Shown here in pieces: positions 1 to 57,628 of a stretch of 64,000 nt of DNA. The stretch is from a virus: positions 51,852-115,851 of the IMG/VR virus record IMGVR_UViG_3300043436_000583; one strand, given 5' to 3'. The position numbers were made by a program, and so were the translations under genes. The first letter of the stretch is position 1. Every line of letters begins with the position of its first letter. The notes under the pieces are model-generated. The model was given only the letters and a program-made list of their open reading frames with translations. It searched no databases and was not told where the DNA came from.

Positions 1-88
1 CAGTCAATTTACCTACAGCACGCTTGTCCATAGAAGCTACTCTAGCATAGGTAAAACCAGTTAAACCTGGGATTGTTTGAATTGCCAT
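1..88 (-). CDS. 5' end of a probable major capsid gene (truncated by window edge)
   Basis: On the minus strand an ATG at 88 opens a frame that runs off the left edge after 29 codons; it begins MAIQTIPGLTGFTYARVAS. The fragment is too short for a domain call. Its place just downstream of terminase, portal and an acidic scaffold-like gene is where the major capsid gene usually lies in tailed phages, so the name rests on position only. Confidence 0.45.
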   Translation of the reverse strand, partial: MAIQTIPGLTGFTYARVASMDKRAVGKLT

Positions 89-124
89 TTGTTATTCTTT
101 TTTAATTTTTGTTATATAAATTGT

Positions 125-1405
125 TTATTTAAACCAAGAAGTGGATTGTGTAACTGGTTTAGATTTCACTGAACTCTTCTGGGCTTGTCTGGCAACTTCA
201 CCAAATAATTCATTAGACTTTTTGGTGATACCTGTCTTTTGAATAGTTGATAATGTAGGATCTTTCTCCATTATCTTCATTAGCAACGCAAGCTTTACTT
301 TTGTTGCATGATTCTCAGGACGTTTCAGCTCCAGAATTGTACGATCAAAATCAGTGAGAGTCTCACCTGAATTTGTTTTGTACTTGTCTGTTACTAGGAA
401 ATCTTGTAGTTCACCAGCTAATTTAGTGTTAATTGGTATGCCATCAAATTCTTTAGCTTTTATTTTCTCTTGTAAAACATTGTTTACATTTTGATAATAT
501 TGCTGTTTGATAGCTTGTTGTTGTTGTAATTGGGCCTCTCTTTCTTGCTCCATTTGTTGGAGCTTTTGGCCTTCTTTCTTTATTAGGACTTTATGGTGTT
601 TCGTAGCAACACTTTCTAGGTCACCATAATTTTTTAATCTTTCAACTTCTGTTGTAACATCTTCAGGCTCAAATCCTTGATCAGTCAAAGCTTGTCTAAT
701 GACAGCTACTTGATTGTTCTCTTGAGTTAAGTCCATATCAGAGAAAGATTTGATTTGGTTAAATGCACCAAAGTAATCTTCAGGTTTTACACCTTTTACA
801 TATATGGCATCAAATGCTTTTTGATAATCTTCTCCAAACTGACCAATGAAATTATCTACAATTTCAATAGCTCCTTTCTTCTTCTCTGCTTGGAACTTTT
901 CCAAGAAAGCTTCAGGAGTATCTATTGTAGCGTCTTCTTCATCTTCTTCTTTTGAAAATACACCTAGTTTGAAAAGATCTCTTGACAATGCAGTGAATTG
1001 ACTTGTAGGAGTTTCTTCACCTTCTTCATTATCAGCATCTTTACTATCTTCTTGATTATCAGCGTTTTGTACAGCTTTCTTAGCTGGTGCAGCTGCTGGT
1101 TCATCATTTGTTTCTTCCTCGCTTTCTTCATCATCCTCACCATATAAGAAACTTTGAATATCCTTTGTAGGATTTTCATCTTTCTTTTCAGGTTCTGGTT
1201 CTGAAGCAGCTGGTTGTTTAGAAGTAGTTTTCTTTGTTGGAGCAGGAGCAGGTTCATTCTTAATGTCCTGAATATCATCAGGGCTAGAAGTTGCACTTTC
1301 AGGGGACAATAAGTCATTTAATAACTCTTGACTACCCATTCCCATGTCCATAGTATCTTGAATACTAAAGTTGCCCATTTGGGGCATATCTAGATTTTCA
1401 GCCAT
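125..1405 (-). CDS. Acidic scaffold-like / head assembly protein
   Basis: 426 aa. The first half is very acidic and low-complexity (Asp/Glu, Pro and Ala around residues 40-135). The second half is predicted helical, with a Gln-rich coiled coil near residues 280-320 (QLQQQQAIKQQYYQ). Acidic disordered plus coiled-coil composition, together with a position between portal and the putative capsid gene, fits a scaffolding or capsid-assembly protein. I recognise no catalytic motif and no protease fusion. The 118-nt gap upstream (1406-1523) has no consensus promoter, so the gene probably shares the transcript from the terminase side. Function is inferred from composition and position. Confidence 0.6.
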   Translation of the reverse strand: MAENLDMPQMGNFSIQDTMDMGMGSQELLNDLLSPESATSSPDDIQDIKNEPAPAPTKKTTSKQPAASEPEPEKKDENPTKDIQSFLYGEDDEESEEETNDEPAAAPAKKAVQNADNQEDSKDADNEEGEETPTSQFTALSRDLFKLGVFSKEEDEEDATIDTPEAFLEKFQAEKKKGAIEIVDNFIGQFGEDYQKAFDAIYVKGVKPEDYFGAFNQIKSFSDMDLTQENNQVAVIRQALTDQGFEPEDVTTEVERLKNYGDLESVATKHHKVLIKKEGQKLQQMEQEREAQLQQQQAIKQQYYQNVNNVLQEKIKAKEFDGIPINTKLAGELQDFLVTDKYKTNSGETLTDFDRTILELKRPENHATKVKLALLMKIMEKDPTLSTIQKTGITKKSNELFGEVARQAQKSSVKSKPVTQSTSWFK

Positions 1406-1523
1406 ATGTAGTTGTATTTATTTGGTTTTCAATGTAAAAGTATATCAAGTTAAATTAACAGCAAAGAGACAAGGCTCTATATAGATCATTATTCAATATA
1501 ATATAGCATTAATGTTTTTTACT

Positions 1524-2054
1524 CTAATCTAATTTGTTAGTAAAATTGTCATTTATAAGTCTAAAGCTTCTGATTGGAGCCAAGTCAGTAAGGGTAACTT
1601 GTTGAACCTCAACTCCCCACTTCCTAGCTTCCACCCTAACCTTCTTTGTCAAAGTGTTGTCAAGTTCTGAATCTGTACATTCATCCATTGTCATAGACAT
1701 AATGACATTTTTGATGATGCTTTGAGACATATCTGACAGAGCATCCTGGGCATCAAATACCTCAAGAAGAAATATCTTGACATCAGCTATCTTATATTTA
1801 ATGACTCCTTTCACTACAATGTTCTGCTTGTCTTTAGTATATAAAGATTGGGCATCTAAACTGAGAGTTGTGACAACCACATGTTGGTCAATCACTTCAT
1901 CAAATAGAGGCATCTTGAAATGTATTCCAGGTTTGAGTACTCTTTTAAAGATACCAAACCTGAGTAATACTGCTTCTTCATAGTCTCTAATAATGATAGC
2001 TGGTGTGAGTTGTAACCACCAATTGGTGATTATCTCTATCAGTTTATCAAACAT
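1524..2054 (-). CDS. SPFH / Band-7 (prohibitin-stomatin-like) domain protein
   Basis: 176 aa. A hydrophobic N-terminus (IITNWWLQLTPAIIIRDYE) leads into a typical Band-7 core: EEAVLLRFGIFKRVLKPGIH, then the paired-strand region ending VIKYKIADVKIFL, then a helix and the segment RVEARKWGVEVQQVTLTDL, which matches the family's 'wGi.v..v.i.di' signature. Members oligomerise on membranes (stomatin, prohibitin, HflK/HflC). The protein is about the size of one SPFH domain and lacks the long C-terminal coiled coil of host homologues. It sits between portal (2-nt gap) and the scaffold-like gene. Possible roles are a portal-proximal ring or interference with host HflKC/FtsH proteolysis; neither is shown by the sequence. 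Confidence 0.85.
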   Translation of the reverse strand: MFDKLIEIITNWWLQLTPAIIIRDYEEAVLLRFGIFKRVLKPGIHFKMPLFDEVIDQHVVVTTLSLDAQSLYTKDKQNIVVKGVIKYKIADVKIFLLEVFDAQDALSDMSQSIIKNVIMSMTMDECTDSELDNTLTKKVRVEARKWGVEVQQVTLTDLAPIRSFRLINDNFTNKLD

Positions 2055-2056
2055 AT

Positions 2057-4639
2057 TTATTTAGTTTTCTTAGCTCTGCCCTTGGCATTCTCCTTGGCCA
2101 CAGCTAAATCATTTGCTTGGTTTTCTCTAGCTATCTTTAACTTCTCTCTTTCTATTTCTAGTTTTTGAGAAGCTAATTGATTTTTACTTTGTACATCCAT
2201 CATCTTAGCCTGATAGTCTCTTTCAGCTTTTGATTGAGCTAGGGCTAGTTTATCTATTTCTAAAACATCAGGGGTACCACTTGCGTCAATATCTGATAAA
2301 GGACCTGCTTTAGATTCAGCTGCAATAAGAGCAATCTCTTTCTTGTTGATTCTATCAAGCTCTGCTTGGTAGTTTTCATTAGCTATTTTCTCTTCAGATT
2401 GTTGTTGAGCTAATTGAATTTGAGCTTGAGCTTGTTGTTGTTGTTGCTCAAGTTCTTGTTGTTTTTGTTGTAACTGAGCATTCTGTAAAGCTTCTTGTCT
2501 ATCTTTCAACTTCTTAAAGACTTGCTTCATTTGTCTCATTGAGTTAGTACTGTAAAGCTCAATCACATCATGTAAGCTACCACCATTTTGGATGACAGCT
2601 TGAGATAATCCTCTAATCTCACTAAACATTTGTCTGTCTTCTGGTCTATTAGTTAAGAATACTTTAAGATCTCTGAAACGTAAATCTGTACCATTTACAG
2701 AAACAAACGCAGATTCTCCTTCATTAGTAATATAAGAAATAGTAGATTGTGGTTTAGCACTTTCTATATATAAAGCTGCGTCAATAATTGCTTGATACAA
2801 TTGACCTAGTACATATTCATGAGCTACAAATAAAGGTTCTGTCTGAGCGTAAGATTGTGTAATAGCTGCATTAGTACCTGTAGCTGATTCACTAGCTTGT
2901 ACAGATCCAAGTCTTTGTCTTGACATACCAATTAATTCCCAGCACTCATTCTTTATTTGTTGTGCTAGAGTATATCTTGCTTGGATTTCCTGTGTACGTG
3001 TAAGGTCAAGACTTGTAAATTGGTTGAAGCTAGATGGACTCTTTAAGTTCTCAGGACTATCATCAACAAATACTACACCTCTATTACGTGCTTCCATTTC
3101 CCAGATATCTAATGCATCTTGAGCATCACCATCTTTAGGAATAGGAATATGTCTTATAGACATTAACTGCACCTTACCTACTTCTTTCTCTAATAACTTA
3201 TAAAGTTGATTCATACAAACATTATAAATTACTTGGAAAGGTTTCATCATATCCACTAAGCTCTTAGCTTCTGTGTTCTTAACTTCAAATGTTTGTCCAA
3301 TGATTGGGCAATAAGGTAATAACTTATAAGGTTTAATATGATAGATGTCTGGACCAATCTTAATACCTTGGTACCATTGGTTAATCCATCCCCACTCTAA
3401 TGAAATTTGTGTAGGAATATTATTAGACTTATAGTCTTCATCAACTAACATAGACTGTTCGTTGCCCATCTCATCTGTATATATAACTTTACCAATCTTC
3501 TTTTTACTAATCCAATATGCTCTTACCACCACATACTTATAACCAAATGAGCTTACATTAGATGTAAGTCCTAAGAAGTCTTTAAGACCATCATTGTTTT
3601 CTTTCATCTCAGACTCAATGATCATTCTAGTTTGTAGAACAAGAGGATCGTATGTATCATATTGAATAGAGTCATTACCTGGAACAGCATTAGGATTACC
3701 TAAGTTAGATTCACGTACATTGATTAATCCATAGTCTTGTAATGAACTACGTAAGTGATCAATCTCATCTTTAGTTAAGTCAGGAACTGATTCAATAATC
3801 TCAGATAGTTCTAATACCTGTACAGTACCAGCAGCATATGCTCCTTGATTTCTACCTGTAGGATCTGAAATATATTTTCTATCAGGAGTAGTTAAGAACC
3901 AAGTATTTTTAGGGTTAGCTACCTCAATGTTAAAACCAGTTTTAGAATTGTCTTCGTATACATGGAAGAACTCTCTAGAAGAAATTAAAAGATCTCTAAA
4001 TGCATCTTCAGATTTCTCCTTTAATACAAACTCAGCTTTCTCAGCAGTCAATACATGGTTTGCCCATTTCTCTGCTACAGATGTATAATTGTCAAGTTCA
4101 TCTTTTACTTGTTGTAATGTTTTCTCTTGTAACTCTTCATCTGTAATCTCCACTCCATCAAATGAAGCTTTTTCTAATATCTTTCTTTGTGCTTGAGAAA
4201 CAACATAGTCTTGTAATAGTTGAGTTTTAAACTCTAACTCTTCAGACTTACTATCATCATCAAATGCTTTGACACGAAATGCATCAGGTCTTTTACTGAT
4301 CTCTCCCACTAATTCATTAATAGGAGTGGTCATTATAGAATAATGTTTTACATAAGCAGGAAGTTCAAGGTCTGCTGTAAGCACATCTGTAAAGCTTCTT
4401 ACTTCTGGTTCTACAAAGAAATCTTCTCTTCTTAAAATACCCTTTACAAGATCATAGTTCTTTACAAATGTATCTCTAGCTTTAACATATTCAGCATATG
4501 CCTTATTGGCAAAGTAATCCATTGAATTCTTTATCCAGCTCTCATCCATCTTTTCCTTCTCAGTTTTAAACTGATCAGGGAAGATATTTAGATAAGCATA
4601 TCTTATAGTTGCGTCTTTCGTGTATCTTATAATTGCCAT
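2057..4639 (-). CDS. Portal protein
   Basis: 860 aa, directly downstream of the large terminase (the genes share one base). The middle has portal-like features: extended beta segments, DIWEMEARNRGVVFVDDSPE, and a helical region with MSRQRLGSVQASESATGT (around residues 575-590), a pattern seen in many phage portals. The last 170 residues are a Gln/Glu/Lys-rich coiled coil (QQKQQELEQQQQQAQAQIQ), as in the large portals of podovirus-like Bacteroidota phages. It should form the dodecameric vertex ring through which DNA is packaged and ejected. The call rests on size, position and these motifs. Confidence 0.85.
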   Translation of the reverse strand: MAIIRYTKDATIRYAYLNIFPDQFKTEKEKMDESWIKNSMDYFANKAYAEYVKARDTFVKNYDLVKGILRREDFFVEPEVRSFTDVLTADLELPAYVKHYSIMTTPINELVGEISKRPDAFRVKAFDDDSKSEELEFKTQLLQDYVVSQAQRKILEKASFDGVEITDEELQEKTLQQVKDELDNYTSVAEKWANHVLTAEKAEFVLKEKSEDAFRDLLISSREFFHVYEDNSKTGFNIEVANPKNTWFLTTPDRKYISDPTGRNQGAYAAGTVQVLELSEIIESVPDLTKDEIDHLRSSLQDYGLINVRESNLGNPNAVPGNDSIQYDTYDPLVLQTRMIIESEMKENNDGLKDFLGLTSNVSSFGYKYVVVRAYWISKKKIGKVIYTDEMGNEQSMLVDEDYKSNNIPTQISLEWGWINQWYQGIKIGPDIYHIKPYKLLPYCPIIGQTFEVKNTEAKSLVDMMKPFQVIYNVCMNQLYKLLEKEVGKVQLMSIRHIPIPKDGDAQDALDIWEMEARNRGVVFVDDSPENLKSPSSFNQFTSLDLTRTQEIQARYTLAQQIKNECWELIGMSRQRLGSVQASESATGTNAAITQSYAQTEPLFVAHEYVLGQLYQAIIDAALYIESAKPQSTISYITNEGESAFVSVNGTDLRFRDLKVFLTNRPEDRQMFSEIRGLSQAVIQNGGSLHDVIELYSTNSMRQMKQVFKKLKDRQEALQNAQLQQKQQELEQQQQQAQAQIQLAQQQSEEKIANENYQAELDRINKKEIALIAAESKAGPLSDIDASGTPDVLEIDKLALAQSKAERDYQAKMMDVQSKNQLASQKLEIEREKLKIARENQANDLAVAKENAKGRAKKTK

Positions 4640-6678
4640 TATGAAAACAATTTATTGCGTTTATATTTATTTTTTGTTTGTCCAAACATATTATTCCTAG
4701 AGTCAGTGAAGAGTATGTTTCCTTTCCTCTTCTTAAACATAGAAGCAACTCTCTCATCTGATGTTCCACCTATCCTACCCATAATTGGGTCCATCTTTAA
4801 AGCTTGTGCTATGGCTAACTCTGCAGCTACAATTCTATCGAAGTTACCTGAATCATTGTATTGAATGATTTCTTCAAGTAATACAGGATCAAATATCTTA
4901 CTTACACCTAGCACTTCTCTTATCACTTCACCTGCTTCATTTGTTTCTTTAAAGATTGCAGCTTCCATATACTTCTTTAAACAAGTGTGAAGGTAGTCAA
5001 TTATCTTTGCAGCTGAACGATGTATACCAAAGTCTCTTTTTACAGTGGTGTTTGGTACAATCTCTTTTAACCATTCAGGTTGTTTTTCTAGATAATGAGC
5101 ATCTCCTTTACTCTTCATATATTCAATAAAGGATATATCATCATTCTCACAAAGAGCTCGTGCATTATAATACTTTATAAGAAGTCTAGCTTGTTCTTCC
5201 CAAGTTTCTTTCTTATCAGGTCTAGCACAATACGAAGCTACGAACATATCTTGATATTTCTCACCACTAATTTCATGCATCCTTTTATATATGTATACAG
5301 ATCCAAGTGAAGTTGAATATGCAGACTTACCTTGTCTATATGGATCGACTCCTGCTACATACAATCCATAAGGTGGATTATCTATAGGGAATTCATATAT
5401 AACTATAGGTGCTTCTTTTAGGTCTGAGTTCTTTAGAGGGAAGTTAGAGATGGGTAGTTTATCTGTAAACTCATGAGCTATCTTCTCTCCATCATTAAAC
5501 AATACAACAGGAGTTCCTGTTCTTTCTTGTTGTAACAATCTAGCTTTCTGTCTCTTAGCACTCTCAATATCAAATATATTTGTATCCTCATTCAAGAAGA
5601 TATCATCCACTTCCTGAGGATAGTACATCTTTTCTTTTAGATAGGCTATACGATCACCAGCTTTCTTAAGTCTTTCTAAATCTCTATTAGTAATTTCTGT
5701 AGCCTTATTCTCATCACTTACAAGCATCTTAACGTTATGTAAGTCTGATTTAGATGGCTCATTTAAATATGCTCCTAGTGTAGATTCATCTTTAGCCTCC
5801 ATCCTATACTTATGTGAGATGAACAAACCATGTATACGTTTATCATCTTTAGCATTGTTATATGTAAGGAAGTTAAAGTTATCTACGTCAAACATCAAGC
5901 TTTTAGCATCCATGAATTTCTTCATGTCACCACCAGTCCCAGTAAGAATGGGGCTACATCCCCAGCCATAGGGTGTAGTGAAACCAGGAATAGCTGCCTG
6001 TAAGCCTCGAAGGAAATTTCCTTTACCAATCTCATCTATAATTAATTTACGTGGTTTTGTACCTGCAATAGCCTCTTCATTATTACCTTCATCAAGGTTA
6101 CGTATTAGAATGGAAGAGAATGGGATACGTTCACCAGACTTGGTCTTTATACCTAGAGTCACTTGGTTCTTCCAGTTATCCTCAATTCTCTGCCATCTCC
6201 AATACTCAGGAATGAAATTCAATCCTTTGTCAATCTTATCAGTAATCAGTTTAATATCTGGGGCATTTAAGCCTGCTATGATATTCTGACTGTTTTCATC
6301 AAAGGTTGCACCCCATGCAATATAGGATGCTTCAAGAACAGACTTGGCAAAACGTCTAATACCTAGAATGACTAAGCCCCTCTTTTCTTGTTGAGCTCTG
6401 TCAATTTCGTTCGTCACAAGCCATTCATTATCTCTCAATAGGGGATTAGCATATTTCTGTGCAATCCTCCCATAATCATCTATTATATCTACTTCTGTAT
6501 GCCATATGTTAAGGTGCCAATATAAAAATGGGTTGATATATGTACCACCCATCATAGCTCCATTTAAACATAACTCTCTGTGAAAGTCAAAGAATGGCTT
6601 ACACTCCTGAGAGTCTTTATCAGGAATACGCTTCTGATTTATAAACCAGTCTTTGTAGTCTATACTTTGTAGTTCCAT
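4639..6678 (-). CDS. terL: Terminase large subunit (packaging ATPase-nuclease)
   Basis: 679 aa. The ATPase half has a Walker A variant GIRRFAKS (residues 106-113) with the catalytic Lys-Ser kept and Ala in place of the usual Gly, and a Walker B strand KLIIDE (D214, E215). The C-terminal half has nuclease-type motifs: GVDPYRQG (first acidic residue), then ALCENDD and later acidic residues. It powers DNA translocation into proheads and cuts concatemers. It overlaps the next upstream gene by one base and the portal gene by one base, showing a compact packaging operon on the minus strand. Confidence 0.92.
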   Translation of the reverse strand: MELQSIDYKDWFINQKRIPDKDSQECKPFFDFHRELCLNGAMMGGTYINPFLYWHLNIWHTEVDIIDDYGRIAQKYANPLLRDNEWLVTNEIDRAQQEKRGLVILGIRRFAKSVLEASYIAWGATFDENSQNIIAGLNAPDIKLITDKIDKGLNFIPEYWRWQRIEDNWKNQVTLGIKTKSGERIPFSSILIRNLDEGNNEEAIAGTKPRKLIIDEIGKGNFLRGLQAAIPGFTTPYGWGCSPILTGTGGDMKKFMDAKSLMFDVDNFNFLTYNNAKDDKRIHGLFISHKYRMEAKDESTLGAYLNEPSKSDLHNVKMLVSDENKATEITNRDLERLKKAGDRIAYLKEKMYYPQEVDDIFLNEDTNIFDIESAKRQKARLLQQERTGTPVVLFNDGEKIAHEFTDKLPISNFPLKNSDLKEAPIVIYEFPIDNPPYGLYVAGVDPYRQGKSAYSTSLGSVYIYKRMHEISGEKYQDMFVASYCARPDKKETWEEQARLLIKYYNARALCENDDISFIEYMKSKGDAHYLEKQPEWLKEIVPNTTVKRDFGIHRSAAKIIDYLHTCLKKYMEAAIFKETNEAGEVIREVLGVSKIFDPVLLEEIIQYNDSGNFDRIVAAELAIAQALKMDPIMGRIGGTSDERVASMFKKRKGNILFTDSRNNMFGQTKNKYKRNKLFS

Positions 6679-7010
6679 TATTTTCTATTTGCTAAGAACT
6701 CAGCAGCAGCTCCTGATAACTCACCTTTACCTCTCACTTCCACCTTTGCTTCTTCCATACTTCTTAGCTTGTCAACCACCTCTATTAATGCTAAATAGTT
6801 TTTCATTGTCTCTTGGACAAATTTACCTTGAGCTTCAATACTAGCAATTACCATTGGTAACATGCCACCTTTAGCTGTAGGTTTCCACTCAATTCTATCC
6901 TTTAGTTCATGTAGTGGATTAGCATTTACATAAGCTTTCCATGAAACGAGTTGTGACTCAGCCCATTCAAGCTCTGTATTTACATATGTAGTTTTCTTAA
7001 TAGTCGCCAT
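6678..7010 (-). CDS. Small helical protein, candidate terminase small subunit
   Basis: 110 aa, mostly helical with Trp-rich N-terminal segments (ELEWAESQLVSWKAYV) and no recognised motif. Its stop overlaps the ATG of the large terminase by one base, the usual place for the small subunit, and the size fits. No clear helix-turn-helix is visible, so the DNA-recognition role is inferred from position only. Confidence 0.5.
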   Translation of the reverse strand: MATIKKTTYVNTELEWAESQLVSWKAYVNANPLHELKDRIEWKPTAKGGMLPMVIASIEAQGKFVQETMKNYLALIEVVDKLRSMEEAKVEVRGKGELSGAAAEFLANRK

Positions 7011-7281
7011 CTTCTTCCTCCTCCTTGAGGATGTTATCGAGGTCCATGCCCTCTTTGATTATTTTTTCTAGTTCAGATTCATCTGTATGTGGAACATCCA
7101 TTTCTATTTCAGACTTATATTTGCTAAGAGCAAATGCAAGTTCTTTATCTGTTAGTCCCCAAATATCACCATAATCTGCAAGAGCTGTAGCTAGGTGTCT
7201 TCCAATGTTATACGTTGGAAAGTCCTTATGTAGTTCTTGTAATATATCAATCACTTCTGTATAGTGAGTCTTTTTACTCAT
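6997..7281 (-). CDS. Hypothetical protein with acidic tail
   Basis: 94 aa, predicted alpha-helical. Residues around 40-55 (WGLTDKELAFALSKYKSEIE) look like a helical pair, and the protein ends in an acidic run (LKEEEEDGDY). It overlaps the next gene by 14 nt. I recognise no family. The acidic tail and packaging-operon position suggest a small head or packaging accessory. Confidence 0.65.
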   Translation of the reverse strand: MSKKTHYTEVIDILQELHKDFPTYNIGRHLATALADYGDIWGLTDKELAFALSKYKSEIEMDVPHTDESELEKIIKEGMDLDNILKEEEEDGDY

Positions 7282-7286
7282 TAGTC

Positions 7287-7541
7287 TTATATTAATTCAT
7301 TTAAATCATCATCTGTTAACTTCTCAGTTCTGATCTCCACTTCTAGATCAACACCTTCAAAGTTCTTTCTTCCCTGATCTGTCATATATTCTCCAGTGAA
7401 GGCTATGCCCATTCTATCAAACTCTTTGCCAGGAACTCCCACTACATCAATGTAATCTATACCCTTGTTATATAGGTCAACAAGTGTATCAATTAACTTG
7501 TCCAGTGGAATCTTCTCTATTTTTACTTCCCTCTTTGCCAT
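7287..7541 (-). CDS. Hypothetical 84-aa protein
   Basis: Mixed alpha/beta protein: a helix (PLDKLIDTLVDLYNKGIDYI) is followed by strands DVVGVPGKE and MGIAFTGEYM. No family recognised. The ATG at 7541 lies within the 3' end of the gene upstream (53-nt overlap), so translational coupling is likely. Confidence 0.6.
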   Translation of the reverse strand: MAKREVKIEKIPLDKLIDTLVDLYNKGIDYIDVVGVPGKEFDRMGIAFTGEYMTDQGRKNFEGVDLEVEIRTEKLTDDDLNELI

Positions 7542-7836
7542 ATATTGTTTCTATTAATTGATTTTCATCATCCCTAGATTCTATTTCTGCAACCCATTTT
7601 TCTATGGGACAAGCACAAGACAAACACTTAGTTTTGGCTGAGAGAACACATCCACAATGTGTACAATGTTTATCAAACCTACGAGGTTTCTTAGGCTTGT
7701 TTTCAGAGCACCATTCACATGCATCACAGATAGCCATACGTTCTTGACTCACCTGTCTTATATGTTCCTTCATGTCGTCTGCTGGAAAGAGGTTATTCTT
7801 CCACCCCTCGTAAATCTGAGAGAAGTTGATCTTCAT
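7489..7836 (-). CDS. Cys-rich zinc-binding protein
   Basis: 115 aa with two Cys clusters: CDACEWC (about residues 38-44), then HCTHCGCVLSAKTKCLSCACP (about residues 57-77), typical of a treble-clef or zinc-ribbon fold. The N-terminus (MKINFSQIYEGWKNNLFP) is like that of small zinc-ribbon proteins found near structural genes in many phages. It may be a structural or nucleic-acid-binding accessory. It overlaps both neighbours (44 and 53 nt). Confidence 0.7.
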   Translation of the reverse strand: MKINFSQIYEGWKNNLFPADDMKEHIRQVSQERMAICDACEWCSENKPKKPRRFDKHCTHCGCVLSAKTKCLSCACPIEKWVAEIESRDDENQLIETIYGKEGSKNREDSTGQVN

Positions 7837-8179
7837 AGATAGTTTTTGTTTTTAACAAATTGATCAGAGCTTCTGTTTTTTCTAGTGTCACTTGAGACGA
7901 ACGTCTCTTTTGTTCAGATGTCGTTTCATCTGATATTATCTTTTCCATTGCCTGCTTCTTAGCATTCAATTGTCCAAGTCGTTTTGTAGCCTTCTTTTCA
8001 TTGAAATAGAACTTACCAAAGCCAGATATCTCTAGGCTATTGTTAAGATCCATCGCTTCGTTTGCAGACTGAAACTGGTGGTTTATTACAGTCTCAATTG
8101 TCTTCTCACTTGTCAACATCTTCACTGCCAGAGTTCTAATTAGGTAGTCTTTGACAGACATGCTTATAGGCTTATCCAT
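7793..8179 (-). CDS. IHF/HU-like DNA-binding protein
   Basis: 128 aa. The N-terminal 60 residues follow the HU/IHF pattern: helices (MSVKDYLIRTLAVKMLTSEK, then ETVINHQFQSANEAM) followed by the signature strand LEISGFGKFYFNEKK, equivalent to 'v.i.gFG.F'. The usual DNA-bending arm is replaced by a Lys-rich coiled coil (LGQLNAKKQAMEKI) and a helical tail. Host HU/IHF proteins are about 90-100 aa. IHF-like proteins are a recurrent feature of crAss-like and related phages; roles in DNA bending for packaging or replication are plausible. Overlaps the upstream regulator by 8 nt. Confidence 0.75.
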   Translation of the reverse strand: MDKPISMSVKDYLIRTLAVKMLTSEKTIETVINHQFQSANEAMDLNNSLEISGFGKFYFNEKKATKRLGQLNAKKQAMEKIISDETTSEQKRRSSQVTLEKTEALINLLKTKTIYEDQLLSDLRGVEE

Positions 8180-8531
8180 GTATTAGACTTATTTGCAATA
8201 TGATGTCCTTCTCGAAGTTCAGCAGAATAAGAGGATTGACCTTCACCTTTGTCCCATCCTTTACAAACACCCCCATCTTCTTCAGCTTACTAATGATGTT
8301 ATTAATAGCAGCAGATGTGCTGTCATATGTCTGGCAAAACTCCTGTCTAATATTAGCATAGGAGATGTTACCCTTTATAGCAGCAAACGCAATTAATTGC
8401 ACTTCCCTATTGGTCAGCTTAAGGTCATTGATGGCTGACAATATTCTATAATACTTCTCAGCCAAGGCAATATCATCCTTCACTGATTTTTTCAGTCGCT
8501 GTACAATGGGAGATTTTGGTTTGGTTTCCAT
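8172..8531 (-). CDS. Winged-helix / HTH DNA-binding protein
   Basis: 119 aa. The centre reads LKLTNREVQLIAFAAIKGNI, then YDSTSAAINNIISKLKKMGVF, a helix-turn-helix with a recognition helix and a short wing (VKDGTKVKVNPLIL). First gene of the minus-strand structural block after a perfect promoter at 8544-8574, followed by the IHF-like gene. Position and fold suggest a regulator of the late module or a packaging-initiation factor. Confidence 0.65.
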   Translation of the reverse strand: METKPKSPIVQRLKKSVKDDIALAEKYYRILSAINDLKLTNREVQLIAFAAIKGNISYANIRQEFCQTYDSTSAAINNIISKLKKMGVFVKDGTKVKVNPLILLNFEKDIILQISLIHG

Positions 8532-25089: not shown

Positions 25090-27444
25090 ATGATTTTAGA
25101 AAAACAAACAGAATCACACATCCTTGAAGAAGGAAGTACACAGGAAACTGTGAAGATGTCACTAGACTTAGATTCTGCTCAGGTCCTGATGCAGATGTTA
25201 AGTAAGAATCTATATTCAGATTCAGTAGGCTCTACTATCAGAGAATGTGCATCCAATGCACTAGATAGTCACAGAAGAGCTGGGTGTGATAAGCCTATTA
25301 TTGTTTCATTTAAAAGAAACAATCAGGCAGATACATTTGAATTTGCTGTTGAAGACTTTGGTATTGGCCTAGATGCAGATGATGTACGCAATATTATCAG
25401 TAAATATGGTAAATCAACTAAGCGTAATAGCAATACAGAATTAGGTATGATGGGCTTAGGTTTTAAGGCACCTTTAGCATATAGTTCTAGCTTCTACTTT
25501 GTATGTAGAAAGAATTCTATGGAACGTAAATACATGATGTATGAAGGAGATGATACAAACAGTATTGATCTTTTATATGAAAGGCCTACAACTGAGCCAA
25601 ATGGTGTAAAGGTTATTGTCCCTGTTAAATATGAAAATAGATATAGTTTTACTCAGAAGATCAAAGAACAACTAGCTTATTTTGAGAGTGTTTATTTTGA
25701 TGTAGATAGTTCTTGGGGAAGAGTAGATAATGATTTTACTATACACAGAGCTGAGCATTATCAATATTCTGATCTTGCTACTAATGGTCACATGCATTTG
25801 TGTTTAGATAATGTATCCTATCCAATTGACTGGGAGAAGCTTGGTATTGATAGAATTCCTATGAAACTAGCTTTACGTTTCAGTCTTAGTGATGGATTAT
25901 TCCCTACACCAAATAGAGAAGCACTTAGATATACACAAGAAGCTAAAGAAACCATTCTTAAGAAGATAACTACAGTGGCTAATATCTTCATGGAGAAGTT
26001 CAATGAGTCTATCACAGATAGTGCTGATATCAAAGCTATTATGGATTATTATGGTAATAATGATAAGTCTATTGATAGTTCTTTTATAGGACAATCAGGA
26101 AGAATTGATGTAAGCTATTTACTTAGACATGCTACAACTATTAGTAAACAACCTAAATTAAAGGGTGCAGAATCATTAAACTTAAAGAGAATAGCTGAAA
26201 TGTGTAAAGATTACATGTTAGCTGAGTATCAAGTGAAGTTTAGATACAATACCAATAGATTTAATAAGTCTACTAGTTATTGGACCACTAACTTAAGAGT
26301 GAATGATTTTTCAGGTGGTCATTTTGGTGGTGTATATATATTTAGTGATAGACTTAGTAAAGGTAAACAAGACTATCTAAGAAGTATATTGGGAGATAAT
26401 CATAAAACATATTATTTTGTTAAAAAAGATAAACAATTTAAGCTTGGATCTAAGACAGTTACAGATTGGGAAACTTACCATTCTATATTAGATTTAAAAA
26501 ATCATCCAAAGACTCAATGGAGACAGATGATTAAAGAGTTTAGATATGTAATAGATATGTATTCTAAAACCTTTATTGATGTAGATGCTATTGATATACC
26601 ACAAGCATTTATAGATGCTCAGAAAGCTAAAAGAATGAAGGTTATAGCTAAAGCTACCACTGTAAAGGGTGTTAAGAAGGTTAGAATGAAAGGTGAATTC
26701 TCTGGTAAAAGAGGTGAATCAACACAACATACTCTAACTGACCAATATTGTAAGTTTGTTCCTAATACGTACAAAATGGAGGACATCCATAAACTAAAGA
26801 TGTTACATGTATATGCTAAGGAAGTTGATAAAAAGCAAATGGACAAAGCTTGGTCTTGTTTTAGCAAGCACGCAGCATTCATATTAGTTGCCCAAGCTAC
26901 ATTTGATAACTTACAGAAAGCAGATTTACATAACTGGATAACATTAGATAAATTTATGGAAGGTAAAAATAGACCATTTAAGACAATAACTACAGCGTTC
27001 TTAATTGATGAGCTAATGACAAATCATAATGCTACATTCAAAAGAATTAATGTAGTTAGAGATATATCTGCTGATTTAGCAGATAAATTACAGATATTGT
27101 ATGATTATGATAACAATCACAATAGAAGCTATGCAGATGCTACAACTAAAAAAGCAGTTATAGAACATGCTAAAGCAAACAACTTATTTGACCAGCCTAC
27201 ATATCTAGTGTATCAGCAAGTTAATGAGGTGCTTACTAAGCTAAAGTTCTTAGATGCTATATTAGATACAATGCATTATAGCAATTCTAAAAAGGATTCT
27301 CCTATGATGATGGCTATAGTTGATCTTTTTAAATATCATAAGCATAGAGTGAATCTAGAGCATTATAAAATTACACTAACAGAAGATGCCCCTTTAGAGG
27401 AGGTGTTAACACAAGACACAATTGAAGAATTAGAAACAATTTAA
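25090..27444 (+). CDS. rIIA-like GHKL ATPase
   Basis: 784 aa. Bergerat ATP-binding fold: N-box STIRECASNALDSHRRAG (E52, N56, D59), G1 box VEDFGIGLD (D89, G91, G93), G2 box GMMGLGFKAPLAYS. This is the HSP90/MutL/gyrase ATPase fold at the N-terminus of T4 rIIA relatives, and the following gene is a clear rIIB-like protein. In T4 the rII pair is membrane-associated and counters RexAB-type exclusion; the same role is unproven here. The C-terminal 500 residues are helical with no known domain. Confidence 0.8.
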   Translation: MILEKQTESHILEEGSTQETVKMSLDLDSAQVLMQMLSKNLYSDSVGSTIRECASNALDSHRRAGCDKPIIVSFKRNNQADTFEFAVEDFGIGLDADDVRNIISKYGKSTKRNSNTELGMMGLGFKAPLAYSSSFYFVCRKNSMERKYMMYEGDDTNSIDLLYERPTTEPNGVKVIVPVKYENRYSFTQKIKEQLAYFESVYFDVDSSWGRVDNDFTIHRAEHYQYSDLATNGHMHLCLDNVSYPIDWEKLGIDRIPMKLALRFSLSDGLFPTPNREALRYTQEAKETILKKITTVANIFMEKFNESITDSADIKAIMDYYGNNDKSIDSSFIGQSGRIDVSYLLRHATTISKQPKLKGAESLNLKRIAEMCKDYMLAEYQVKFRYNTNRFNKSTSYWTTNLRVNDFSGGHFGGVYIFSDRLSKGKQDYLRSILGDNHKTYYFVKKDKQFKLGSKTVTDWETYHSILDLKNHPKTQWRQMIKEFRYVIDMYSKTFIDVDAIDIPQAFIDAQKAKRMKVIAKATTVKGVKKVRMKGEFSGKRGESTQHTLTDQYCKFVPNTYKMEDIHKLKMLHVYAKEVDKKQMDKAWSCFSKHAAFILVAQATFDNLQKADLHNWITLDKFMEGKNRPFKTITTAFLIDELMTNHNATFKRINVVRDISADLADKLQILYDYDNNHNRSYADATTKKAVIEHAKANNLFDQPTYLVYQQVNEVLTKLKFLDAILDTMHYSNSKKDSPMMMAIVDLFKYHKHRVNLEHYKITLTEDAPLEEVLTQDTIEELETI

Positions 27445-27454
27445 AAAACAAAAC

Positions 27455-28993
27455 ATGGGACTATTTAGCCTAAACTGGTTCAAGAACCAGAAAGAAAAAC
27501 AGATTCAAGATTTAAAAATTGAAATCAAAATTGCAGAATTAGAAAAAACATTAGAGAGAACAATTGCTCATCCTAAACCATCAGATTATTCTCATGCGAC
27601 AGCTGGTGGATATACCTCTAGTTGTTTAACTGCATCAATCTCTAAGCCATATATGAATATAAAGATGGTAAATGATACATTGACTATTATATTAAATGAT
27701 GGTTCTATCATTACTAAATCTCCTGCAACTGCAGGGGATTTTGATAAAGCAAGAGAATGTAAGACAGAATCTTGTTTATTAAGTCTTGTAAGCTCTCCAG
27801 AAATAAAAGAAGAAAAGAGAAAAGCTGAAGCTGAGTATGAGAAAGCTAAAGCTATTCAAAGAGGTGCTGAATTCTTAGCTACCCTTGAGGAATTTGAGAT
27901 GAAGAACAATGCTTTGTATTTAAAAGGTATCAGTAGAAGTCTACCTCCATTACTAGTAGAAGAGTTCTTAGAAGTGGTTGGTAAACATGGTGGTACAAAA
28001 AATGATGAATTCAATGCTTTGCATAGATTCTTTATGTGGTGCTGCTTGAATCCAAGAGCTGAGGTTGCAGATAAGTTATTTACCTTCTTGAAGAAGAATA
28101 GCTTTAGCATCACTAAGCAGGGCTTCTTTGTAGCTTTGAGGAATGTAGTTACATTGCATGGTTCTACAGAATTAGTACAATTCATAAGCAATGCTTATAA
28201 TAAAGTGAAGGCTGTTTGGAAGAAGAAACCTGAAGATTACACTGTATTCTTACAAGATGATGGTACATACAAAATGGTTCATAAAGATTTACTTACAAAA
28301 GAAGAAACATGTACATATTGTGATGGATCTGGTTATATTCCAGGGTATGATGAAGATGGTTTTGAGTCAGATGATGATGATAATAGAGAATGTCCAGATT
28401 GTGATACTACAGGTAAAGTTAATGTAACTTGTGAAGATGAATATGGTCAACCTATTGGTAATCTGACAGAACTATATCTTGATCTTCCTAATAGAGCAGA
28501 GAATAGATTTACAGATGCTCATACAAGAACATTTGATATCAGAATTGGTAGACCAGTGAGTATGCCTATGGAAAAGTGCAGATGGAATACTGATGACTGT
28601 GGTGCTGAAGGTCTACACTTTACTAGTGATGAGATTCATTATGTAGGATGTGGAGATACAAGCGTTCTTGTACTTATTAACCCAATGAAGGTGGTAGGTA
28701 TTGGTGAGTCTAAGGGTAGATGCTATGAGTATTTACCAATTATGACTGTGCCACGTGAGGAAGCAACAGACATTTTACATGATCTTGACTTTGATACACT
28801 AGAGCTAGATGAGAGTTATGCTGTACGTGAATTAGATAACTTGGCTGAGAAGGCTAAGGAAGGATTTACAGAAGAGCGTAAGAAGTATGATTTCAATCTC
28901 CCTGCCCTATCTGCTGTAGAAGTTTATACAATTGTAAAGAGTCTTGATGAAATAAAACAAGAAATATCTAAAAGAATTGTAGAAATTGATTAA
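27455..28993 (+). CDS. rIIB-like protein with zinc motif
   Basis: 512 aa. Central rIIB signature: ALYLKGISRSLPPLLVEEFL, then FNALHRFFMWCCLNPRAEVA, then FSITKQGFFVALRNVV. A DnaJ-type Cys cluster CTYCDGSG and CPDCDTTG lies near residues 286-325, and the C-terminal rIIB block (FTDAHTRTFDIRIGRPVSMP, then GAEGLHFTS, then VLVLINPMKVVGIG) follows. Ten nt after rIIA. Coiled-coil N-terminus. Likely partner of the rIIA-like ATPase. The gene ends at a terminator-like hairpin (29002). Confidence 0.8.
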   Translation: MGLFSLNWFKNQKEKQIQDLKIEIKIAELEKTLERTIAHPKPSDYSHATAGGYTSSCLTASISKPYMNIKMVNDTLTIILNDGSIITKSPATAGDFDKARECKTESCLLSLVSSPEIKEEKRKAEAEYEKAKAIQRGAEFLATLEEFEMKNNALYLKGISRSLPPLLVEEFLEVVGKHGGTKNDEFNALHRFFMWCCLNPRAEVADKLFTFLKKNSFSITKQGFFVALRNVVTLHGSTELVQFISNAYNKVKAVWKKKPEDYTVFLQDDGTYKMVHKDLLTKEETCTYCDGSGYIPGYDEDGFESDDDDNRECPDCDTTGKVNVTCEDEYGQPIGNLTELYLDLPNRAENRFTDAHTRTFDIRIGRPVSMPMEKCRWNTDDCGAEGLHFTSDEIHYVGCGDTSVLVLINPMKVVGIGESKGRCYEYLPIMTVPREEATDILHDLDFDTLELDESYAVRELDNLAEKAKEGFTEERKKYDFNLPALSAVEVYTIVKSLDEIKQEISKRIVEID

Positions 28994-46398: not shown

Positions 46399-47121
46399 TT
46401 AAAATGTTTTATTTAGTATAAAGACATCACTATAAATACTATTTTCTGGATCAGTGCTGCCCCAGGTTGCTGTGATATCTAATGTGTTACTAATTGTAGT
46501 GTTAAATGAGCTACTATTTACAGTGTTAAATCCAAAACCTTCAAAGGCACCATTGTTTGTTTTTAAATAAGTAAATCTACCTAATGATGCAATTGATGCT
46601 ACACCAGCAGCTCCAATCTGTCTAATTGTAAAGTCAACATTTAGAGACCATATATCATTTGTAACAGCACTTGTAAGAGTTTGAATACCACTATCAAGAA
46701 GTATAGTAGATCCTGCTTTCACTTTAATTCTTATAGTTTCATTGTTACCAGCATCTATAACACCTCCCATAAGCACTCTAAAAGAATCACCAACAGTGAA
46801 TCCATTAGCTGGTACAGTTAATGTACCTACACCACCATTGATTAATGTGGTTTCTACAATTGTTCCAGAGACAGGAAAACTATCTCCTGTTTGGCTAAAC
46901 AGTCCATAGTTTAATGATACAGGTAGTGAAGGACTAACTCCTGAAGTACCACTTGATCCTGAGATACCTGAAGTACCTGACACACCAGAGGTACCTGATG
47001 TACCAGAACCTCCAGACGTACCACATGCTACTATACAACCTATCCCTTCTATCTGTTTAGAGATTTCCCACAACAGGTTGTCAGTTGTGCCCCATCCTAT
47101 CTGTCTACTTGGTATCGCCAT
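46399..47121 (-). CDS. Collagen-like virion protein with GTSG repeats
   Basis: 240 aa. Tag MAIPSRQIGWGTTDNLLWEI, then CGTSGGSGTSGTSGVSGTSG, then ISGSSGTSGVSPS: Gly-x-Ser/Thr repeats like the collagen-like regions of phage fibres, with Ser and Thr in place of Pro. The C-terminal 170 residues are a beta-rich trimeric-fibre-type domain (VNADFT, YSDVFILNKTF). Heads an operon driven by 47129-47159. Probable tail-fibre or decoration protein and possible glycosylation acceptor. Confidence 0.75.
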   Translation of the reverse strand: MAIPSRQIGWGTTDNLLWEISKQIEGIGCIVACGTSGGSGTSGTSGVSGTSGISGSSGTSGVSPSLPVSLNYGLFSQTGDSFPVSGTIVETTLINGGVGTLTVPANGFTVGDSFRVLMGGVIDAGNNETIRIKVKAGSTILLDSGIQTLTSAVTNDIWSLNVDFTIRQIGAAGVASIASLGRFTYLKTNNGAFEGFGFNTVNSSSFNTTISNTLDITATWGSTDPENSIYSDVFILNKTF

Positions 47122-50887: not shown

Positions 50888-51256
50888 TCAGTAGGGCTGA
50901 TAGGATTTCTCCTCTACAAACTCACTTCCATACTTCATATTAATTTCTTTTTTAATATTTGCTCGCTTGTCATTCAATATGTAAACGCTTCTAGCTAGCT
51001 GTACGAAGTGGTCATCAAATGTCTTGTTTCTTTCACAATCTCTAAGCCTGTCCTCTACATTCCAAAGGCTCTTGTTTACAACAAGCAATTGATCAGTTAA
51101 AGGGTCATGTAGAATCTCAGGTTCTATCACTGTATTTAGATAGGTTCTTTCCTTGAATACATTTACTAACTTGTCTTTATCAGTAATATTCAATGCTTTG
51201 ATAGAAAGTATAGTCCACTTGTCTACTACTTCCCCAATACTTACATTAATGTTCAT
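50888..51256 (-). CDS. DUF6165-like helical protein
   Basis: 122 aa. VSIGEVVDKWTILSIKALNI is close to the start of a family (DUF6165) often encoded in glycan or sugar-transfer clusters. All-helical, no catalytic motif. Divergent from the glycosyltransferase operon and sharing its promoter region. Function unknown. Confidence 0.65.
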   Translation of the reverse strand: MNINVSIGEVVDKWTILSIKALNITDKDKLVNVFKERTYLNTVIEPEILHDPLTDQLLVVNKSLWNVEDRLRDCERNKTFDDHFVQLARSVYILNDKRANIKKEINMKYGSEFVEEKSYQPY

Positions 51257-51263
51257 AAGAAAT

Positions 51264-51295
51264 GTTGTTTATTATTAACAAAAGTAGTACATTTG
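51264..51295 (+). promoter_or_regulatory. Promoter of the plus-strand glycosyltransferase operon
   Basis: GTTG (51264-51267), 20-nt spacer, TACATTTG (51288-51295). Start codon 17 nt downstream at 51313. Interlocks with the minus-strand promoter at 51279-51310. Confidence 0.7.
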
Positions 51296-51310
51296 TTGCA
51301 AATATCCAAC
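51279..51310 (-). promoter_or_regulatory. Promoter of the DUF6165-like gene, interlocked with the plus promoter
   Basis: GTTG (CAAC at 51307-51310), 20-nt spacer, TACTTTTG (CAAAAGTA at 51279-51286). The two divergent promoters overlap and carry the same GTTG variant of the -33 box. Confidence 0.7.
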
Positions 51311-51312
51311 AG

Positions 51313-52239
51313 ATGAAACCAGTTTGTTTAGACTTGTCACAATGTAATGGATTGGGTGATCTAATCTGTGCCACTCCCACTATCAAAAAACTGTCTGAAA
51401 GCTATGGCCAAAAGATAACCATCCTCTCTCAGATGCCTGAGCTATTTAAGATGAATCCTTATGTAGAGAAGAGCTATAAAGCTGCTTCAGTTGACATGCC
51501 TTACTTTTCAATCCACTACATTATACATAGTTCCTTTTATCTTGTAGGTAAGAAGGATGAGCGTGGTATAGAGATGAAGCATAACATGATGGATATCAGA
51601 CAGTTCCATGCTATACACCTAGGATTTATGCTTGGACAAGATGAGATGGAATGCTATTACAAACCTACAGAACCTAAAGAGCATTTTATAGATGGAAAGT
51701 ATGCTGTGATACATCCTGTTAATAGCTGGCCTAATAGAACATGGTCACAAGATAATTGGACAAAGTTATGTGAAGAGTTAATCAAATGTGGATACACTGT
51801 AGTGGCTGTAGGTAAGGATAGCAGTGAGACAGGCTTCTTTAATGTAGACAAACCTGTACATGAGATGGGTAATAACATTATCAACTTGATGAATCAAACA
51901 TCTATATCTGAGACCTGGCACTTGATTAATAATGCTGCAGTTGTAATTACAATGGATAGTGGAATTCTACATCTAGCAGGTACAACAGAGACACCTATAA
52001 TTGAATTAGGATCTCCCATCAACCCAGAGTTTCGTAGACCATATAGAAAGACTAGTAAACATATATACGTAAGAGGAGCATGTGGATTACACTGCAGCTC
52101 TAATATGAAATATGCTCTTGAGTATTGGCCTACAATTGATTCTGTACAACCATTGATTGGATGTTTAGAAAAGAAAGAAACCTTTGAATGTCATCCATTT
52201 GTAGAACAAGTTATTGATGCAATTAAAAGAGAATTATGA
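51313..52239 (+). CDS. GT9/heptosyltransferase-family glycosyltransferase
   Basis: 308 aa from ATG 51313. N-terminus KPVCLDLSQCNGLGDLICAT (typical of GT9 ADP-heptose transferases), then YAVIHPVNSWPNRTWSQDNW, then TMDSGILHLAGTTETPIIEL (nucleotide-sugar site). The C-terminus carries four Cys (GACGLHC, then LIGCLEKKETFECHP) recalling the iron finger of autotransporter heptosyltransferases. First gene of a five-gene operon. Confidence 0.78.
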   Translation: MKPVCLDLSQCNGLGDLICATPTIKKLSESYGQKITILSQMPELFKMNPYVEKSYKAASVDMPYFSIHYIIHSSFYLVGKKDERGIEMKHNMMDIRQFHAIHLGFMLGQDEMECYYKPTEPKEHFIDGKYAVIHPVNSWPNRTWSQDNWTKLCEELIKCGYTVVAVGKDSSETGFFNVDKPVHEMGNNIINLMNQTSISETWHLINNAAVVITMDSGILHLAGTTETPIIELGSPINPEFRRPYRKTSKHIYVRGACGLHCSSNMKYALEYWPTIDSVQPLIGCLEKKETFECHPFVEQVIDAIKREL

Positions 52240-55561: not shown

Positions 55562-56571
55562 AATCAGTACATGTTGCTACAGGACTAATAACCATACCAC
55601 CAAATGGATGGGGTGCTGTAGAAAGACTTACATGGGAATATAAAATAGCTCTTGAGAAACTTGGACATGGTGTAGATATTAGATACATGAACGAGTTGGA
55701 GAAGTGGCCCAATACAATTGTGCACACGCATTTAGCTAATCAAGCTCTTGATTGTAGAGATAAGGGTATTCCCTATGTGTATTCTTTACATGATCATCAT
55801 ACAGAATGGTATGGTAAGGATAGCTGGGTGTTTAAACAAAACCTAGAAGCTATGAAGAGTAGTATTATATCCTTCACTCATGCTGAATATTTGGTAGACT
55901 ATTTTGATGCTGTAGATAAACTATTCTATCTACCACATGGGGCTAATACAGATTTCTTTGTTCCTAATTATGAACCAAAACCACATGCATTATTTATGCT
56001 TGCTAATAATGGATTAGCAGGTGATTCAGGATTTGATAGAAAAGGATTTAGATGGGGGATAGAAGCAGCTGAAGAACTAGACTTACCCATCACTATAGCT
56101 GGACATCCTAATAATCAAAAGTTCTTTGACATTCATTCAGAGCTATTGCAATATAAAAAGTTAACTTTAAAGTTAACAAACCCTACAGATGAAGAGACTA
56201 GAGAGTTATATCAGTCTCACACCATATTCTTACATCCATCTATGCTAGAAGCAGGTCATCCTAACCTAACACTTATGGAAGCCACAGCTTGTGGTATTCC
56301 TATTGTAGGAACTTATAGAGGTAGTAAACCTATACCTGGAATGCATGTTCTTGATAAGATTACAAAAGAATCTGTAATAGATGGCATTGTAGATGTTATG
56401 TATAACTATGATGAACGTAGACAAGATATATTTAACAAGCGTACAGATTATAGTTGGGATGAGGTGGGTAAGATATTAGCTAAATACTATTACAATATTC
56501 TTAAGATTAATGAGGGATATACATCAGAAAAAACAAGACAATTATATATAAACGCATATGATAACTTATAA
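55549..56571 (+). CDS. GT4-family glycosyltransferase
   Basis: 340 aa. HVATGLITIPPNGWGAVERL, then FLPHGANTDFFVPNY-type region, then SHTIFLHPSMLEAGHPNLTL, then MEATACGIPIVGTYRG (donor-binding E-x7-E: E232...LMEATACG). Retaining GT-B-fold transferase. Overlaps both neighbours. Confidence 0.82.
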   Translation: MESIKSVHVATGLITIPPNGWGAVERLTWEYKIALEKLGHGVDIRYMNELEKWPNTIVHTHLANQALDCRDKGIPYVYSLHDHHTEWYGKDSWVFKQNLEAMKSSIISFTHAEYLVDYFDAVDKLFYLPHGANTDFFVPNYEPKPHALFMLANNGLAGDSGFDRKGFRWGIEAAEELDLPITIAGHPNNQKFFDIHSELLQYKKLTLKLTNPTDEETRELYQSHTIFLHPSMLEAGHPNLTLMEATACGIPIVGTYRGSKPIPGMHVLDKITKESVIDGIVDVMYNYDERRQDIFNKRTDYSWDEVGKILAKYYYNILKINEGYTSEKTRQLYINAYDNL

Positions 56572-57628
56572 AATAACACATGTTAATGGTCTTTATTTTG
56601 AACTATTAGATGATGAGGGGAAAGGCAGAGAGTATGATGTAACCTTTGTAGATAGAAAAGATGATGGGCATATATATGAAACCAAGCTTAAACCAGGAGC
56701 ATGGGCTAAGCTTAGCAGAAGCTATCTATCTGATATAGCCATCTTTATTAAATACCAAGGACGTACAGTTAAACAGATTAACTTGTTAGATGAGTTGAAA
56801 GGAAAGCGTGTGTTTATATCTTATGAATCTAAGAGTCTTGGAGATAGTATAGCTTGGATACCATACTGTTTAGAGTTCCAAGAAGTGTACAAGTGTGAGG
56901 TGATTGTATCCACATTTAAGAATGAGCTATTTGAAACTGCCTATCCTGAACTAAAGTTTGTAGGCAGAGGTGTGATTGTCAATAACATCATAGCAATGTT
57001 TGAACTAGGTTGGTTTTGGGATGACAATAAGGAACCTGTCAATCCTATCACTATACCTTTACAACAGGCAGCTAGTAATATATTAGCTCTTCCTCATAAA
57101 GAAATACAGCCTAGGATAGCTTTTGTTCCTAATGAAAAGCCTATAGATGGTAAATACATATGTATATCTACAAGATCTACATCACAATGTAAACACTGGT
57201 ACTATTGGCCAGAGCTAATTCAATCTTTAAAAGATATGGGATATAGAGTGTTTGAGATGTCTCAGGATGCTGATGAGCTAGGAGCAGAGAAGCTAGAAGA
57301 TGTGTCTTTGAATAATGTAATGAACCATCTGTATTATGCAGAGTCATACATAGGCCTTTCTAGTGGCATTAGCTGGCTAAATTGGGCACTTAATAGGAAG
57401 ACAGTGATGATCTCTAACTTTACACTATCAAGCCATGAATTCCAATCTAATTGCATTAGAATCACCAATGCAGATGTATGCCATGGCTGTTGGAACAATC
57501 CTATGTTTAAGTTTAATAAGGGAGACTGGAAATGGTGCCCTGAGCACGAGGATACCCCTAGACAATTTGAATGTCATAAATCCATCAATATGGAAACTGT
57601 ACTAGAGAAGGTTAAAGAAACTTTATAA
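56558..57628 (+). CDS. Autotransporter-type O-heptosyltransferase-like protein (BAHT/TibC family)
   Basis: 356 aa. Family-specific blocks: YESKSLGDSIAWIPYCLEFQ (D96 in SLGD, matching the proposed general-base region), EVIVSTFKNELFETAYPELK, ITIPLQQAASNILALPHKEI, YICISTRSTSQCKHWYYWPE, ESYIGLSSGISWLNWALNRK. The C-terminus holds an iron-finger Cys set: C308, C311, C327, C339 (spacing 3, 16, 12; C-x2-C-x15-C, as in TibC). TibC-type enzymes put heptose on Ser of autotransporters. Here the likely acceptors are Ser-rich virion proteins. Last gene of the operon. Confidence 0.85.
   Translation: MITYKITHVNGLYFELLDDEGKGREYDVTFVDRKDDGHIYETKLKPGAWAKLSRSYLSDIAIFIKYQGRTVKQINLLDELKGKRVFISYESKSLGDSIAWIPYCLEFQEVYKCEVIVSTFKNELFETAYPELKFVGRGVIVNNIIAMFELGWFWDDNKEPVNPITIPLQQAASNILALPHKEIQPRIAFVPNEKPIDGKYICISTRSTSQCKHWYYWPELIQSLKDMGYRVFEMSQDADELGAEKLEDVSLNNVMNHLYYAESYIGLSSGISWLNWALNRKTVMISNFTLSSHEFQSNCIRITNADVCHGCWNNPMFKFNKGDWKWCPEHEDTPRQFECHKSINMETVLEKVKETL

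Follow-up and report, generated by a model that had tools for sequence, protein, structure and literature searches.

The last gene of a five-gene phage glycosyltransferase operon encodes a protein that, judging from its sequence and modelled fold, belongs with TibC and Aah in a superfamily of GT-B glycosyltransferases with an iron finger, but lacks the thumb. This enzyme probably glycosylates Ser/Thr residues of the phage's own [Gly-(Thr/Ser)-Ser]n tail-fibre repeats as the first step, with the other operon glycosyltransferases extending the glycan; we infer that the repeats are its acceptor from genomic association. The window, i.e., the whole 64,000-nt stretch of DNA analysed, corresponded to G000:C1:51852-115851 of the 115,851-bp virus record (positions are those of the window unless given as record C1), and a record-wide search found one copy of the ORF (Table 1).

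Family membership and residues compared with TibC

The 356-aa ORF product matched NCBIfam model TIGR04414 with 239.3 bits (cut-off 200, E 6.4e-71) and TibC (PDB 4RAP) with E 8.5e-45 in phmmer, Pfam Glyco_transf_9 scored 21.9 bits on it against a gathering score of 22, and the PHROGs search returned no family. The AF2 model of the product (pLDDT 95.8, pTM 0.92) had TibC 4RAP as its best PDB match in Foldseek (E 2.8e-31, TM 0.85), with WaaC next among the matches (TM about 0.47). A structural match to TibC and the retention of the cysteine cluster in relatives had been set in advance as checks on the TibC-family call of the earlier note, and both turned out in its favour; the fold match and the TIGR04414 score support that call as kinship of sequence and fold. 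All 39 rows of alignment A2 matched the TIGR04414 model, and at least 595 viral stretches encoded a relative of the enzyme.

In TibC, the iron ligands are Cys339/342/358/370, and activity requires Asp110, Lys230, Arg286 (the adenine contact), Trp305, the four Cys, and Phe265/Val266 of the β-hairpin thumb, which hold the dodecamer together (PMC4358343). The phage protein kept (i) the catalytic base, Asp110 of TibC, as Asp96, (ii) the donor residues Thr226/Lys230/Trp305 as Thr208/Lys212/Trp273, and (iii) the four cysteines at 308, 311, 327, and 339 noted previously, for which iron binding is predicted from the TibC-identical spacing. The Asp, Lys, Trp, and all four Cys were invariant across the homologs compared (88 distinct viral and 80 bacterial sequences). 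The residue that limits TibC to D,D-heptose, Pro300, had Ser268 as its phage equivalent, the same as in Aah.

The further claim that the whole motif series was present went too far, because beside the retained Asp/Thr/Lys/Trp/Cys4 set, Arg286 was replaced by Val254 and the thumb with Phe265/Val266 was deleted (19-residue span vs. 30 in TibC). Arg286 was retained in 3/88 viral rows vs. 69/81 bacterial rows (TibC counted), and a thumb-length insert was present in 63 of the 80 bacterial homologs and in essentially none of the 88 viral ones; the long thumb-region span of L020 (29 aa) was inspected as a candidate true thumb and set aside as an unrelated-looking insertion. Since the thumb is absent, a TibC-type thumb-linked dodecamer ring is unlikely for the phage enzyme. 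Since the residue contacting adenine in TibC is lost, the phage enzyme may use another nucleotide donor; heptose is a possible sugar.

A maximum-likelihood tree, drawn with a midpoint root, contained a 100/100 branch separating the thumb-type enzymes (21 rows) from all thumbless enzymes (74 rows: 54 viral and 20 bacterial). The thumbless bacteria fell into at least two distinct groups, a gammaproteobacterial one and one made up mainly of methanotrophs, plus single branches.

Operon, neighbouring genes, and repeat proteins of the phage

Table 1. Coordinates of the enzyme gene, its operon and neighbours, and the repeat proteins
Feature	Position	Strand	Evidence or remark
Thumbless TibC-like iron-finger glycosyltransferase, 356 aa	56558..57628	+	ATG start, single open frame
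Iron-finger cysteines C308, C311, C327, C339 (codons)	57479..57574	+	Spacing identical to TibC; invariant in 88/88 viral rows
GT9-family glycosyltransferase	51262..52239 (likely start 51313)	+	Pfam Glyco_transf_9 E 7.3e-20
Large GT4-containing protein, 884 aa	52236..54890	+	Pfam Glycos_transf_1 E 4.4e-8, GT4 domain about 164-276
GT2-like glycosyltransferase, 224 aa	54887..55561	+	Pfam GT2 weak, below cut-off; PHROG glycosyltransferase E 1.2e-10
GT4-type glycosyltransferase, 340 aa	55549..56571	+	Pfam Glyco_trans_1_4 E 1.7e-8
DUF6165 protein	50888..51256	-	Pfam DUF6165 E 5.9e-9
2OG-Fe(II) oxygenase, 202 aa	57629..58237	-	Pfam 2OG-FeII_Oxy_3 E 1.4e-13
240-aa protein, short GTS/GSS collagen-like stretch	46399..47121	-	Pfam Collagen E 0.0034, below cut-off
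Fibre-like repeat protein, 99 G-[ST]-[ST] triplets	record C1:1330-5925, outside window	-	Pfam Collagen/PHROG
Fibre-like repeat protein, 40 G-[ST]-[ST] triplets	record C1:5934-7295, outside window	-	Pfam Collagen/PHROG
Fibre-like repeat protein, 40 G-[ST]-[ST] triplets	record C1:43483-45165, outside window	-	Pfam Collagen/PHROG

The TibC-like gene was, as the earlier note had it, the last of five glycosyltransferase genes in the operon; the five plus-strand ORFs overlapped, and it shared a 14-nt overlap with the GT4 ORF before it. The description of the first operon gene as GT9-like with a Cys-rich end was also borne out: its start is likely at 51313, with the alignment to most relatives beginning at residues 12-18, and the C-terminus of its product displayed a Cys4 cluster of its own (C274-x3-C278-x22-C301-x8-C310, conserved in all 18 rows covering the region), possibly a second metal finger. 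Residues 341-884 of the 884-aa GT4 protein had no Pfam or PDB match.

In 57/88 viral relatives, the TibC-like domain formed the C-terminus of a longer protein with other glycosyltransferase domains upstream, and three kinds of fusion partners were seen: (i) GT4 homologs in 11, (ii) GT2-GT4 in three (L043, L176, and L205), and (iii) homologs of the large GT4 protein in 43. In 14 of the 88 viral relatives, a homolog of the GT4-type protein (about 47-54% identity) was the immediate fusion partner of the TibC-like domain. Long upstream domains were found in only four of the 80 bacterial proteins, all four of them thumbless.

The DUF6165 gene was found beside the glycosyltransferase cluster in 34/88 viral loci, and in L175 it was fused to a cluster protein. 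The 2OG-Fe(II) oxygenase gene adjoined the operon on the opposite strand and was a neighbour in 14/88 viral loci; a role of its product as hydroxylase of fibre residues is conceivable. Elsewhere in the window, RIIA/RIIB-like lysis-inhibition genes and a terminase were observed (25090-28993 and 4639-6678), and a tRNA search of the window found none.

The three large repeat proteins matched Pfam Collagen and PHROG families of tail fibres or collagen-like minor tail proteins. The viral repeats had Thr (55%) or Ser (32%) at position X and Ser (76%) at position Y, with Pro at about 1%; the bacterial repeats (see below) were similar (X: Thr 49%, Ser 45%; Y: Ser 81%). Proline or hydroxyproline is the usual basis of collagen stability. 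Thr glycosylation has been put forward as an alternative route to collagen stabilisation (cited in PMC3368898). The phage repeats may form triple helices.

Association of thumbless enzymes with G-[ST]-S repeats

The whole-record search was applied to 25 phage records known to carry the enzyme, and repeats were found in 24 of them, this phage included, with the reversed control pattern matching 0/25; the sole exception, LR756504, had the enzyme without repeats, and its enzyme was the most divergent. A six-frame scan placed repeats in the flanks of 48/88 viral enzyme loci. The search was also run blind in the opposite direction, on viral contigs of at least 20 kb picked solely by the G-[ST]-[ST] DNA pattern and confirmed by translation: the enzyme was present in 23/50 contigs, and in 23/47 of those with G-[ST]-S type repeats, so about half of the repeat-bearing contigs were without it, many of these being fragments. 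The rate among the 47 contigs climbed with length (4/19 at 20-50 kb, 9/16 at 50-100 kb, and 10/12 at 100 kb or more). The enzyme was found in 0/33 control contigs fetched by random 15-mer and in 0/41 control contigs with Gly-Pro-X collagen repeats. The link to tail-fibre proteins with G-[ST]-S repeats lends good support to the previously raised idea that the enzyme would modify virion proteins; the genes of these fibre proteins lie beyond the window and so were hidden from the earlier note.

The terminase of the window was closest to that of Leptolyngbya phage Lbo-JY46 (38.7%), followed by those of Cellulophaga and crAss-like phages, and Lbo-JY46, the nearest named phage by terminase, had neither enzyme nor repeats. 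The cultured Microcystis phage Mel-JY01 (L047, PP395634.1) contained a 1016-aa repeat ORF on the plus strand (nt 2-3052) and, shortly downstream of it, a GT4-TibC-like fusion at 4750-8430. In the deposited annotation of Mel-JY01, minus-strand ORFs were called across most of the plus-strand repeat gene.

The same pairing was observed in bacteria, where thumbless genes were flanked by genes of small, apparently secreted proteins composed of SGTSGTSGT repeats. The six-frame scan found repeats in the flanks of 11/17 thumbless vs. 0/63 thumb-type bacterial loci (Fisher p 1e-9). In a set of 251 genomes from one methanotroph order (that of a Methylobacter, G022), repeats were present in 8/9 genomes with the thumbless enzyme (within 2 kb of it in five of the eight), in 0/5 genomes with the thumb-type enzyme, and in about 9/237 genomes without the enzyme, the last figure being counted by eye among the matches listed. 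Within the thumbless clade, the repeat association recurred in three separate branches. GTS-repeat protein genes beside thumbless genes of Gammaproteobacteria and methanotrophs were seen at L055-L057, L060, L062, L065-L067, and L120, and a DUF6502 gene also adjoined in L065 and L067.

Proposed mechanism, rival explanations, and known systems

In the proposed mechanism, the thumbless enzyme would move a sugar from a nucleotide donor to Ser/Thr of the collagen-like [Gly-(Thr/Ser)-Ser]n repeats, which contain little Pro, and would thereby add the first sugar; the GT4, the GT2, the large GT4 protein, and the GT9 of the operon would then lengthen the glycan, which may stiffen or shield the fibre. 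As a counter-reading of the association, joint descent can keep fibre and glycosyltransferase modules together in phages.

The enzyme could also act later, on a glycan that the operon GT4 or GT9 begins on Ser/Thr of the repeats and to which it would add an inner or terminal sugar. The operon holds five glycosyltransferases, and in 57/88 viral relatives the enzyme sits at the C-terminal end of a protein with several glycosyltransferase domains, so it might extend a glycan begun by another of them. TibC itself, however, glycosylates Ser of a protein (PMC4358343). At bacterial loci L057, L065, L067, and L120, moreover, the thumbless gene adjoined the repeat gene and a scan of the neighbours found no further recognisable glycosyltransferase, so the thumbless enzyme may act directly on peptide; a later step for the enzyme is rated unlikely. 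It is more doubtful still that the operon alters surface polysaccharide of the host, to mask receptors or exclude superinfection, with an indirect link to the fibre repeats. Phage glycosyltransferases commonly make such changes, and GT9 and GT25 homologs are found in LPS synthesis, but the association was specific to G-[ST]-S repeats, being absent for Gly-Pro-X collagen fibres, and bacteria showed the same pairing, there with repeat proteins that appear to be secreted.

The identity proposed in the earlier note, a genuine autotransporter O-heptosyltransferase (BAHT) that would target host adhesins, is highly improbable. Its score above the TIGR04414 cut-off, the conserved Asp, Thr, Lys, Trp, and four Cys, and the Aah-like Ser at the stereoselectivity position all speak for it. 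Against it stand the missing thumb and Arg286, the separate 100/100 clade, and the distribution of the TIGR04415 acceptor repeats, which were found in none of 25 phage records (this one and 24 others) and none of three thumbless bacterial genomes vs. both thumb-type genomes examined. No ADP-heptose synthesis gene (HldE domains, GmhA) was found in this record, and the standard autotransporter heptosyltransferase assignment is not supported; the host might provide an autotransporter acceptor or a heptose donor. Heptose-pathway matches in other phages were scattered, with only one over the cut-off, and so gave no support for a phage-made donor in general. Two very large enzyme-bearing phages had heptose-pathway genes, L242 (LR756504.1, 430182-430640) and L243 (LR756501.1, 209213-210175), namely a GmhA scoring above its cut-off (251 bits) and an HldE-kinase-like gene that narrowly missed its own (306 vs. 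345 bits).

We lean slightly towards a widespread, undescribed protein O-glycosylation system. In it, thumbless enzymes, found in phages and in some bacteria, would cover Pro-free [Gly-(Thr/Ser)-Ser]n repeats densely with glycans, whose sugar is possibly not heptose, and glycan-stabilised shafts would replace hydroxyproline-stabilised collagen; no description of a thumbless enzyme/repeat system was found in the open-access literature searched. Tail-fibre genes of environmental phages are rich in collagen-like G-[ST]-S repeats, which are nearly Pro-free and have no explained role; a dedicated glycosyltransferase, if true, would help account for them, and virion glycosylation would then become testable in cultured phage Mel-JY01. 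The acceptor class of this TibC-kin enzyme is probably new, and a clade whose likely acceptor is different is receiving the NCBIfam name "autotransporter strand-loop-strand O-heptosyltransferase". The equivalog name of TIGR04414 lands on thumbless phage and bacterial proteins for which no autotransporter partner was found, and its cut-off is perhaps too permissive.

Among known systems, the GT9 LPS heptosyltransferases WaaC/WaaF are placed in one superfamily with the phage enzyme on the borderline Pfam Glyco_transf_9 score (21.9 vs. 22 bits), but the fold similarity is low (TM only about 0.47), and to our knowledge they have no iron finger of the TibC type. BclA of the Bacillus exosporium has Pro-rich GPT repeats and is glycosylated by other enzymes. 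As a glycosylated collagen-like protein of bacterial spores (PMC8968730), it resembles the proposed phage fibres, but it is not of phage origin, and the phage repeats have about 1% Pro. Mycobacteriophages are cited as having phage-encoded glycosyltransferases that decorate virion proteins (Freeman et al. 2023, cited in PMC12619734); according to the passage concerned, the decorated sites in these Mycobacterium phages are C-termini of the capsid and tail tube, and that passage describes no TibC-like enzyme or collagen-like repeat. The closest system is TibC/Aah (TIGR04414; PDB 4RAP and 4RB4; PMC4358343), which has in common with the phage enzyme the GT-B fold, N-terminal β-rich domain, catalytic Asp, Thr/Lys/Trp donor site, and 1Fe-type Cys4 iron finger of identical spacing. 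The phage enzyme differs from it in the deleted thumb, the Arg286-to-Val replacement, and the lack of an autotransporter acceptor among the records searched, while enzymes of the phage type form a separate clade, are often fused to other glycosyltransferases, and are linked to G-[ST]-S repeats.
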